In this document: piece after piece, positions 39,167 through 43,301 of the stretch
Position numbering within the stretch: position 1 is the first letter of the stretch
Layout of the letters: every line of letters starts with the position of its first letter
Origin: Pontederia crassipes
Taxonomy: Eukaryota; Streptophyta; Magnoliopsida; Commelinales; Pontederiaceae
Assembly (NCBI GenBank): GCA_030549335.1
Contig: CM060188.1
Coordinates: 14,883,501-14,947,500 of the forward strand
Direction: 5' to 3'
DNA: 64,000 nucleotides
The notes under the pieces: model-generated
What the model was told of the DNA's origin: nothing
The model's database searches: none
What the model saw: the letters and a program-made list of their open reading frames with translations, nothing else
Made by a program: the position numbers and the translations under genes

Positions 39167-39516
39167 TCTTATATTTATATAAAGCCGAATGACAAGTGAC
39201 CGTTTTAAACTTTCATCCTTTCACGATTTTGATTTCTCCTTTTTGTTGTTTTTTTTTGCATTTTACGTGTTTTCTTCTTCTACTCCCTCCCCTCTCTCTC
39301 TCCTCCATTATAATAAGGCGTCTCTAACAAATACATCATTACTTATACCGTTTAGAGACTTGTGCATGCGGTGACACGCAGGCGTCCATATCAAATTAAG
39401 GGCATCCGTTGAGGACGTCTGCATGCATGGGGTTGATTAAAGATCCACTCCAAAGGACAACCGTTTGAGGTCGTGTGCATGCAGGCCGTCACCTCTTGGT
39501 ACGCCGGTGTCTAGAA

Positions 39517-39639
39517 CTGATGCGAGCGGCTTACTCCGTCGTCAACGTGCAGTGTCGCGACCGCCCGAAGGTGTTGTTCAACGTCGTCTGCACACTGACA
39601 GACATGGACTACGTCATGTTCCACTGCATCTTTGGATCC
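39517..39639 (+). pseudogene. ACT-domain repeat (ACR-type) gene fragment
   Basis: Reads [20 protein letters not shown] and then [16 protein letters not shown], the start of an ACT domain as in plant ACR proteins (uridylyltransferase-like ACT-repeat regulators). About 40 codons are clear. Neither a start nor a continuing exon is present. GC-rich sequence in an AT-rich setting supports a captured exon piece. Confidence 0.75.
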
Positions 39640-40066
39640 GATCGATCGAGCTTCAAACTCATCTATCTAATTATCTTCTCTCCTTTTCACCATTGTTATT
39701 TTTTTTCTCATTTTTGTATAAAATGAAAATTTCAAACACTCATCTATCTAATGCATTTAATCTACTGCGCAAATAGTTACACATTTGAATGGAATATAAA
39801 GAATTATCATAATTTGAATGTAAAGAGCTATCCAAAGAATTGCACATTCGAATGGAATATGAACAACTATTATAAATTATAAATCGGAATATGATGAGTA
39901 GAATAATTGATTGTGCACCTCCATATAACGAGACCAATCTTTTTGGGTGGAGCGTAAAGAGGACCTCCAAAGGCATGGTTGGCTAAATACAAAGAGGACC
40001 TCGAGTGCAGAGGTATGTTCTTCATTAATCCTTTTGTACCACCTGTCTCCTTCATTGTTGTCCACC

Positions 40067-40192
40067 ATGGCGGAGCTCAAGAAGCTCTCGGGAGTGTGCG
40101 ATCTCATGAGCATATGGTGAATTGGCGCCCACTCCCACATCCGCGGCCTCGCCTCAACGCGTCATGATGTCCGACACATCTCCAAGGGAGGA
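40067..40192 (+). pseudogene. RuvB-like 2 (Reptin) N-terminal fragment
   Basis: From the ATG at 40067: MAELKKLSGVCDL, a stop replacing a basic residue, then IGAHSHIRGL. This is the conserved N-terminus of RuvB-like 2, an AAA+ ATPase of chromatin remodelling complexes. The following residues (RHISKG) are only weakly alike, and the ATPase domain is absent. The presumed 5' leader of the source gene is kept just upstream. Confidence 0.75.
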
Positions 40193-40254
40193 CACCTATC
40201 TTTTTGGGTGGATGGTAAAGAGGACATGGTTACGTCCACGCTTATTTGCTTCAG

Positions 40255-40600
40255 GTCCCACTTGGAACCAATGGATGTGCATATTTTCAGTTTGAAGATA
40301 TTTGCGACAGACCTTTGGTGGCAGCATATTACTTTGGTTTATTTAGTAAGCTGATTTATTACTTTGGTTTATTTAGTAAGGTGATTTCTTTCTTCCATCA
40401 GTTTTGTTATTTTTCCAAATCCAATGTTATTGGGTTATTATGTTCTCCATTTTGCTATATTTATTTGTCTTATGGTTGCAAAGTGCAAACTGATGTCTTG
40501 CAGAAAACTTTCACACACTTGCAATTGATGGCATCCCCAAATTCGATCTTCACAATAGAACTGCAGCTGAATTAATTGCCGTTTTGTCACCTTAGTTGAT
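40255..40600 (+). pseudogene. AFG1-like ATPase fragment, two exons with intron
   Basis: After a TTCAG acceptor (40254) the first exon piece reads VPLGTNGCAYFQFEDICDRP, then AAYYFGLF. The second, after TTGCAG (40503), reads NFHTLAIDGIPKFDLHNRTA, then a one-base shift and RFVTLVDV. This matches the C-terminal part of mitochondrial AFG1/LACE1-type ATPases. The donor GTAAG at 40346 joins the exons in frame (GLF-K-NFHTLA). A 23-bp segment including this donor is duplicated directly after it. Retained introns show DNA-level capture. Confidence 0.78.
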
Positions 40601-40609
40601 GTACGTCTC

Positions 40610-41175
40610 GGGCTTATGTTTGACATAATACTTTTCATCATACAAGCTTTCTGCCTCTGGTTTCTGATCATGTTTTATATGTCTTCCTGTTTTTAGCTGC
40701 CTCTCCTTATATGGGATATTCTATTGATGTTTGATGTTTATTAGCCATCTAGATTTGTGTCCGAAACTCAATATTGGGTACTGGCCAGAACTCATTCCTC
40801 TCCTGACAAATAAGTTATCATAAATTAGGTATTAGGTTACATACTAGATATTTTTTTTAGTTTTTCCAGTGGTGGTTGCATACTTGATTTTGATGTGAGT
40901 AAGTGTGATCTATAAACATTAATATGTACGAAAGCTTCTTGCAATCTGTTTCTAGGGGGATATATATACACTTGATTATATGCATACAAAAAAATAATAA
41001 TAATAAAGAATGGCCGTAGAAAATTAAATGTTTTAGCTTCTACTGTAACAAAGGAAAAAAACTGCTTGCATAATTGAATACTGCTACGCGAAAAAAAAAG
41101 GCTCAAGAAGTGAACAACAAAATGCATGGAAAAAAGTAAAAAAGAAATAGAGAAAGGAGAGAAGGGGCTAATTTC
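40610..41175. other. Helitron A interior, nothing recognised
   Basis: AT-rich, with an A-rich patch at 40980-41150. No further captured exon was recognised. Confidence 0.35.
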
Positions 41176-42400
41176 ATGCACCAAGCACCTCTATCCTTCA
41201 TTCATTCTCCATTATCTTTTTTCTTATTTTTTGAATTATTTTAATATTTCTTTTTAATTTCATGCATAATGGTAATTTAAATCTATTAATTATAATAACT
41301 TAAGTCTATTAATTATTTTTAAATTTCAAATGTCACATATTTTATATCTACTTAACTTCATTAATTATTATTTATTAATATGAAGAGTCATAATTATTTT
41401 TAATTTGAAAGATCATATGACTTATGATTTATGTTAATCATCTATGTATTAAATTTTAATATCATGATTAAATGTTGACATCTTATATTATATAGTTCTA
41501 TGCACCAAGCACCCCTGTCCATCCTCCATTTTTCATTATCTCTTTTTCTACTTTTTTTGAATTATTTTAATATTTCTCTTTAACTTCATGCATTATGATA
41601 ATTTAAGTCTATTAATTAACAACTTAAGTATATTAATTTATGAATTTAAAAAGTCACATATTTTATATCCACTTAACTCCATTAATTAATTTTTTTATTA
41701 ATATGAATATTCATAATTATTTTTAATTTGAAAGATCATATGACATTTTATTTATGCTAATCATTTGTGTGTTAAATTTTAATATCATGATTAAATGTTC
41801 ACATATTAAATATTGACTCTTAATATTTCATTATATTGACCCTTTATAATAATAATAATAATAATAATAATAATAATAATAATAATAATAATAATAATAA
41901 TAATAATAATAATAATAATAATAATAATAATAATAATAATAATAATAATAATAATAATAATAATAATAATGCATCCTTAATTAATATATATTTAACATCA
42001 AACATCATGATTAAACTTTTCATGAAATACAGGTTGACTTTTTATATTCTATATATTTTTAAAATTATAAAAATGCTATTTTATCCATCATCTATTAATT
42101 TTTTTAATCATAACAATATAATTTTAGACATCAAACACCTTAATCCTCAATTTATTCTTATTTTATCTTTTATTCTATTTTTAAATTATTTCTCTATAGC
42201 TTCATGCATAAATTTATTTATTTAAAAATATGATAACTTAAGTATATTAATTACTTTTAGTATTATGACAAGTCATAATTATTTTTTGGAATTTAAAAAG
42301 TCATCTATCTTATATCTACTTAACTCCATTAAAATAGATATGTTTTAATTTGATATCACATATGTTAATCATATCACCTTTAATCATTGTTTAGAATAGG
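41176..42400 (+). repeat. Tandem repeat of about 320 bp, three degenerate copies
   Basis: Copies start near 41178 (ATGCACCAAGCACCTCTATC), 41500 (ATGCACCAAGCACCCCTGTC) and 42125 (diverged). They share the TTCATGCAT, CTTAAGTCTATTAAT and TATCTACTTAACTYCATTAA segments. Confidence 0.8.
41846..41970 (+). repeat. (AAT)n microsatellite, about 41 units
   Basis: A perfect run of about 125 bp inside the tandem-repeat region. An open frame of Asn codons across it is an artefact. Confidence 0.97.
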
Positions 42401-42735
42401 ATTTGAAAAAATCAATATCATTTTCTTAAAAATATGATATTATTTTCTATAAAATATATATTATTGATAGTAAAATTGTAATATATTTTTTAGCACACAT
42501 ATGGGAATGTAAAATAATACTTATTCTAATATTATGAAAGACATAATATTTTTTTATAATTATATTAAATATGTTAAAATATAAACTTAATTAATATTTG
42601 TTTTAATTCAAATTGTAAGACGTATATATAGATATATATATAATGTATGTTACAAAAATTAGTGTATATATATTATAAATTATAATAAAAATATAAAGTT
42701 ATATTTTTATTTATATATTAAAATATATTTAAATT

Positions 42736-42747
42736 GCGCGAAGCGCG
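42736..42747 (+). other. Helitron-type 3' hairpin
   Basis: GCGCGAAGCGCG can fold as a GCGC stem with a short loop. It lies 15 nt before the candidate 3' terminus and stands out in AT-rich surroundings. Confidence 0.6.
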
Positions 42748-43301
42748 ATCGAGTTAGATTAGTTAATATATATAACTAAAATTCGATTACTTTCATTTTC
42801 CAAATATTATCTTGTACAACAAGTTTTCAGAAATAAATATGTTAGAGGACAAAGCAGTAAAAAAAGGAAGTTATGACATTAAAATTTTGGGATTTTCGTT
42901 AAGGGCGCCCAGAGTAATTACAAGTGCTCTTTTTAATTACTTATCACTTGCTTTCTTGAGTGTAGTGATTAATTTTTAACTACTCAATAATGTATATATA
43001 TTACCTAACAAAAGACTTATCACTTATTAAATTTGAGTGATGTGCATTATCTTACTCATTGTATATAAATAGTTTGTCTAACAATTCACAAATAATTTTA
43101 ACAATTCAGATAACTATATTTACTTATAACAAGTGGTTATTAGATAATATACGTCTTTTACTAGAAATATCTTTTATCCTAAAAAAAATAGATAACTTGA
43201 TCGAAATCTCGGACCATAACTTTGTAAAATTATATATTAAATAAAAAATTGAATTCCATGAAGAAAAAAGGGGGACACGATCGAATGGACGCCTCCATTA
43301 A

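Follow-up and report, generated by a model that had tools for sequence, protein, structure and literature searches.

The stretch of Pontederia crassipes DNA analysed here (hereafter the window; 64,000 nucleotides, positions 14883501–14947500 of contig C6) contains a non-autonomous Helitron of 3596 bp at window positions 39167–42762 (+ strand), an identification that we regard as practically certain. The element carries pieces of an ACT-repeat (ACR-like) gene, of a RuvB-like-2 gene and of an AFG1-like ATPase gene, and is directly followed by 1846 bp, designated R', that are related to another sequence of the same window, designated R. Together they interrupt a repeat designated LF. The explanation that best accounts for the whole locus, and that we consider likely, is a Helitron with captured pieces that underwent 3' read-through into R and was inserted in LF; the read-through step, taken by itself, is held with slightly less confidence, as probable.

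Ends and copies of the Helitron

The terminal features that an earlier note had described from the letters of the sequence alone were present at the positions given. The TC start follows an A at the boundary 39166/39167 (A|TC), and the 3' boundary, TTAG|T, was located at 42762/42763, separated by a tail of 15 nt from the GC hairpin GCGCGAAGCGCG (42736–42747, + strand). Similar ends were then sought throughout the 1.13 Gb of the searched genome. For the 5' terminus, which begins TCTTATATTTATATAAAGC (39167–39195, + strand), the 29-base family pattern gave 64 matches versus 0 for the reversed control. The 26-base 3' family pattern, with at most three mismatches, gave 124 matches versus 0 for its reversed control; both counts refer to the whole genome, and positions were listed for the first 100 of the 124. 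With the same number of mismatches, the 3' pattern was found once in the window, against a mean of 0.00 over 100 shuffles. In some places, the 5' and 3' patterns occurred as pairs on one strand, 2–3 kb apart, for example at C6:13631492/13634481 and C6:29123874/29126021.

To establish the form of the 3' end, 18 loci (L009, L010 and L013–L028) were read in addition to the window. Loci L013–L028 have in common the whole or part of the family 3' region (41169–42762, + strand), which consists of two 323-bp units, an ATA run and an A+T-rich tail. All 16 ended in TTAAACTAG|T, with GAGTTAAACTAG|T in 12 of them. The TTAG end proposed earlier is therefore that of the window but not that of the family, which is CTAG. 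Because of this family end, the TTAG of the window is regarded as a decayed CTAG; the same change is carried by L009. The predicted fold of the window hairpin was no better than those of shuffled sequences (z −0.59), and the hairpin stems were altered in several family copies.

On the 5' side, similarity started at the same base in seven further loci (L069–L074 and L039), where the preceding base was A in five and T in two, and the element began with TC in six and CC in one. The query used for this search (best 40 of 77 candidates) began at 39167, so that similarity to the left of this base was invisible to it. Comparison of the 600-bp flanks of these loci gave two short, out-of-register matches of 45–49 bp (L039/L069 and L074/window). 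Among the right flanks of L013–L028, only those of L016 and L025 were alike (440 bp, 95%), the rest showing no match at E 1e-4. The similarity between these two loci (C21:2636500-2640800 and C2:40923800-40928500, respectively) extends over at least 440 bp and may mean either that the entire locus was duplicated or that here, too, a 3' flank was carried along.

A DNA search with 39167–42762 gave 100 matches (best 40 of 1244 candidates scored). Two near-full-length copies were identified, at C7:18248315-18252147 (L009) and, on the minus strand, at C7:45514919-45519667 (L010). The TC at the first base was identical in the window, L009 and L010; the preceding base was A in the window, and A and G in the C7 pair. 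At its 3' end, L009 reads TTAAATTAG|T, that is, TTAG|T at the same place as in the window, and L010 reads TTTAAACTAG|T, that is, CTAG|T, with the loss of the 25 bp that bear the hairpin. This loss probably occurred between two TTAAA words. The ATA run of L010 is, in addition, interrupted by about 1.3 kb of inserted sequence. No mutual match was detected at E 1e-5 between the 800-bp flanks of the three copies. Their overall divergence was 7.5–9.0%, a figure that counts positions aligned across private insertions; the segment-wise values, which are safer, were 5.0–13.5%, with 2.7–5.0% for a 40-base filler. Copies with the same ends, unrelated flanks, the genome-wide terminal patterns and parent genes that lie apart (see below) all support the non-autonomous Helitron that had been proposed.

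The element contains none of the 93 listed matches to Helitron_like_N and is therefore considered non-autonomous. One of these matches, at C19:14225174 (+ strand), is followed about 13 kb downstream by a family 3' end on the same strand (span C19:14225174-14238586; lists compared by eye), with no family 5' pattern nearby among the genome-wide matches listed. This locus is a possible autonomous partner. When the family ends were sought in 12 Helitron_like_N loci, only chance-level matches were found.

Captured gene fragments

The pieces of an ACT-repeat protein, RuvB-like 2 and an AFG1-like ATPase that the earlier note had recognized, all on the + strand, were confirmed by matches to genes of the same genome. 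The ACR-like fragment (39498–39653, + strand), identified by DNA matches to ACR genes, was 85% identical to a gene on C16, 82% to one on C6 and 85% to one on C10; an 85% identity to an ACR gene spanned 136 aligned bases. The Pfam ACT domain was detected in this fragment at 3.9e-4, below the curated cut-off.

The AFG1-like fragment (40230–40978, + strand), identified by genome DNA matches and Pfam, was 84% and 83% identical to two AFG1 genes, on C9 and C10, respectively. Both genes matched the same stretch, introns included, in agreement with the intron retention noted before. Without gaps, the fragment was 91% identical to each gene, and the two genes were 96% identical to each other. The Pfam AFG1_ATPase family was detected in the fragment at 9.9e-5, below the cut-off, and in the parent exons at 2.6e-10. 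The reading frame is broken in exon 2 by an 8-bp insertion; because this insertion is common to all three copies, the loss of the frame predates their separation. A 30-bp tandem duplication over the intron donor site (40327–40394, + strand) was observed in the window copy and was absent from the other two. Examined by eye, the AFG1 junctions exhibited no convincing microhomology.

Unlike these two pieces, which match ordinary genes, the RuvB-like-2 piece is second-hand, its best matches being pseudogenes in a different Helitron family; this qualifies the earlier reading of three host-gene fragments. Used as a query, 39965–40240 gave 12 matches: the window, the two element copies, L044–L047, L048–L051 and L052. 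L048–L051 are true RuvB-like-2 genes and L052 is another degenerate piece. The true genes matched only 40045–40188 or 40060–40188, whereas L044–L047 matched nearly the whole segment (73%), from 39702–39711 to 40188, a stretch that takes in DNA lying upstream of the gene start. The left edge is common to these four loci; it is A|TCTATATATATATAAAGCTGATG-like in L045 and L046, and runs into a TA repeat in L044 and L047. On the right edge, in L045 and L046 only, a GC hairpin is followed by CACTAA|T and CACTAG|T. Because of these edges, L044–L047 are assigned to a different Helitron family with a larger RuvB-like-2 pseudogene. On the sequence evidence, the segment at 39702–40188 (+ strand), which comprises part of a RuvB-like-2 pseudogene and DNA upstream of it, came via another Helitron family. 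Since a gene piece can pass between Helitron families in this way, counts of host-gene capture can be inflated.

No Pfam match was obtained for the RuvB-like-2 fragment, and TIP49 was detected in the parent gene at 8e-79. A PDB search with the fragment gave a RuvB-like helicase at E 0.57 only, and led nowhere. A 35-bp sequence is present twice as an 89% direct repeat, first at 39930–39964 and again at 40191–40225 (both + strand), the latter between the RuvB-like-2 and AFG1 pieces. This second copy may be repair filler DNA.

The parent loci lie apart: AFG1 on C9 and C10; ACR on C16, C6 and C10; RuvB-like 2 on C7, C12, C8 and C11. Where contigs coincide, the distances are 7.6 Mb between the C6 ACR gene and the window, and 2.9 Mb between the ACR and AFG1 genes of C10. 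The earlier note had named three observations that would speak against it; none was made, and the parental genes, when compared, did not lie together in order. Duplication of a gene cluster was rejected because the parent genes are not together. A coding function was likewise rejected, because in all three copies the RuvB-like-2 piece contains a stop and the AFG1 piece the 8-bp insertion that breaks its frame. The chimeric transcripts that the earlier note had considered possible are hypothetical. The identical orientation of the three pieces is weak evidence of anything, since with random orientation it would arise with a probability of 1 in 4.

Target repeat and probable carried 3' flank

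The left part of LF (38936–39166, + strand) ends in CTCTCTAACA and the right part occupies 44609–44907 (+ strand). In six out of the six loci examined (L078–L083), LF was unbroken across the site, with window position 39166 continued directly by 44609; in L078–L081 the match extends as far as about 44903, interrupted in L081 by a break peculiar to that locus. A seventh locus, C9:26579096-26579502, was judged unbroken from its coordinates. Moreover, 16 of the 54 genome-match rows for LF begin exactly at 44609, and only the window's own row joins LF to R'. Uninterrupted LF reads AACA(T/A)TATTAATATAA, or nearly so; in the window, AACA is followed by 5442 bp and then by TATTAATATAA. The inserted unit is probably 39167–44608 (5442 bp), which is longer than the Helitron family unit. 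The end proposed earlier, 42762, is that of the family but probably not that of the unit inserted here, for which 44608 is the more likely end. When this unit was compared with uninterrupted LF copies, it was seen to lie at an A|T site without target-site duplication, to within one base.

LF-like sequence was also seen near other Helitron ends. L077 (C12:10179900-10182200) consists of tandem units, and three times there a Helitron-like 5' end is immediately preceded by LF-like sequence. In the window, a second family-like 5' end, A|TCTTATATTTATATAAAACTGG, is present at 44902–44943, where the right part of LF ends.

R' (42763–44608, + strand) consists of 1846 bp of sequence R on the 3' side of the Helitron and is a probable 3' transduction. 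Its similarity to R has edges at 42763/204 and 44608/5971. The corresponding stretch of R (204–5971, + strand) contains two inserted stretches, 1289–2372 and 2662–5814. Four aligned blocks were distinguished: 42763–43364 with 204–822 (92%), 43813–44233 with 864–1288 (92%), 44227–44475 with 2373–2661 (74%, gapped) and 44471–44595 with 5815–5936 (81%); the alignment continues to 44608/5971. The C5 copy shows that R also includes sequence to the left of 204, and beyond 5971 the window sequence continues without LF. Because R continues on both sides, R' is an inner piece of it. At 203/204, R reads ACCA|TTAATATA, an empty site with its A|T intact, and R' starts exactly at this A|T, the position that a Helitron lying in R would have occupied. 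The C5 copy (C5:54455900-54456400) is without 29 bp starting exactly at that A|T, perhaps the trace of a lost Helitron. The stretch inserted in R at 2662–5814 begins with CACTACAA and ends with TTGTAGTG, and was CACTA-element-like by eye.

In the explanation that we favour, the Helitron would move by rolling-circle transposition, with enzymes presumably supplied in trans. The ACR and AFG1 pieces would have been acquired at the DNA level, and the RuvB-like-2 piece from another Helitron family; the captures, in their inferred order, would precede the separation of the three known copies. One Helitron copy would have sat at the A|T site inside R. In the last move, its own 3' terminator would have been read through and 1846 bp of R taken along, the 5442-bp unit 39167–44608 then being inserted in the LF repeat without target duplication. 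Read-through is favoured because one event explains all of the edges, namely those of LF (39166/44609) and both of those of R' (42763 and 44608).

Several observations weigh against this explanation. No R locus with a Helitron inside was found in the search for further R copies and composites (best 40 of 719 candidates scored; 40 of 41 in another R search); the copies of R, of which there are at least three, were listed as R' itself, the empty one at window 204 and the empty one on C5. Nor was a second copy of the composite listed, either among these best 40 of 719 candidates or in the 54 LF rows. The new 3' end, ACACG|T, is without CTRR and without a convincing hairpin (z −1.29), and LF lacks one base at the junction. 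A microhomology join is also possible, since CA precedes the junction in both LF and R. The bypass cannot be put down to the C-to-T change by itself, because L009 shares the TTAG|T end but lacks a flank of this kind. The window hairpin looks intact. Finally, the identity of R' to R is 92% in the first two blocks, but 74% and 81% in the last two.

The strongest alternative, which we nevertheless consider unlikely, is an ordinary insertion of 39167–42762 at LF, followed by gene conversion or break repair that took a second Helitron copy within R as its template and continued into R before rejoining LF. Many family copies are present to recombine, and such an event accounts for the start of R' exactly at the Helitron 3' end and at the A|T of R. 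However, by itself it gives no reason for LF to continue at most one base away from the Helitron insertion point, and the Helitron copy in R was not found for this alternative either, among the best 40 of the 719 candidates. Rather more doubtful is a sequence of events in which R' entered LF as break-repair filler, joined at the shared CA, and the Helitron landed later, by chance, on the LF/R' junction. Besides the CA common to LF and R, the LF-like sequence just upstream of other Helitron 5' ends (on C12 and at window 44902), which would make LF a possibly frequent target, is in its favour; against this, the Helitron must have picked the one A|T at the junction. Another gene-capturing transposon or an ordinary gene-cluster duplication is scarcely credible: Pack-MULEs and Pack-CACTAs likewise carry host gene fragments (PMC13317346), but the copies studied here have TC...CTAG ends and a 3' hairpin in common, without target duplication, and the parent genes lie apart.

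Beyond the inserted unit, a reading frame that was RNase-H-like by eye, of retroelement type, was observed at 38500–38900. A fragment at about 45230–45315, with DINKGSCTPEEDMKLVAYG, appeared MYB-like by eye and gave no Pfam match at 0.01.

Comparison with known systems

Gene-capturing plant Helitrons are well known (PMC4683698, PMC13317346). The non-autonomous rice Helitrons of the Mothra type resemble the present element in their TC and CTAG ends, in the hairpin near the 3' end and in the A|T target; in addition, RepHel of their own is absent and the host gene fragment that they carry is described as non-functional (PMC4683698). The present element differs in that it contains fragments of other genes, one of them second-hand, and a probable 3' transduction.

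The way in which Helitrons capture host DNA, whether by end bypass or by filler DNA, has been called far from clear (PMC6544945); the same source explains internal capture by filler DNA and capture on the 3' side by end bypass. As in the filler-DNA model proposed for insect Hel1, pieces were captured internally here, and a short duplicated sequence lies between two of them (PMC6544945). Under that model, the junctions should display short stretches of shared sequence (PMC6544945), whereas none that was convincing by eye was observed at the AFG1 junctions.

For end bypass, the closest parallel is Helraiser of bats. The intact element carries flanking DNA in an estimated ~11.7% of transpositions, and when the hairpin is removed, at least 36% of events carried the whole 1.6-kb cassette (PMC4778049). 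Two recorded ends of transduced sequences were CTAC and AATG, and a palindrome was present in 0 of 5 new ends; one natural case of 3' transduction in bats is also described (PMC4778049). Helraiser and Helibat thus have in common with the present locus a precise 5' end, flanking DNA carried past the 3' end, and a new end without CTRR or palindrome (PMC4778049), ACACG|T being as irregular as those of Helraiser. In the open-licence literature that we searched, we met no plant case of end bypass in which source and target are both readable, and we do not claim that there is none. With somewhat less assurance than for the read-through step itself, we favour the view that end bypass and internal capture, including that of a second-hand piece, occurred together in one natural plant element with readable source and target. 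Unlike the Helraiser and Helibat cases, the present one is a single natural plant locus at which, with the donor missing, the transduction is inferred, and at which R and uninterrupted LF can still be read; since source, target and product are all readable in one assembly, the bypass step can be checked by comparing related genomes.

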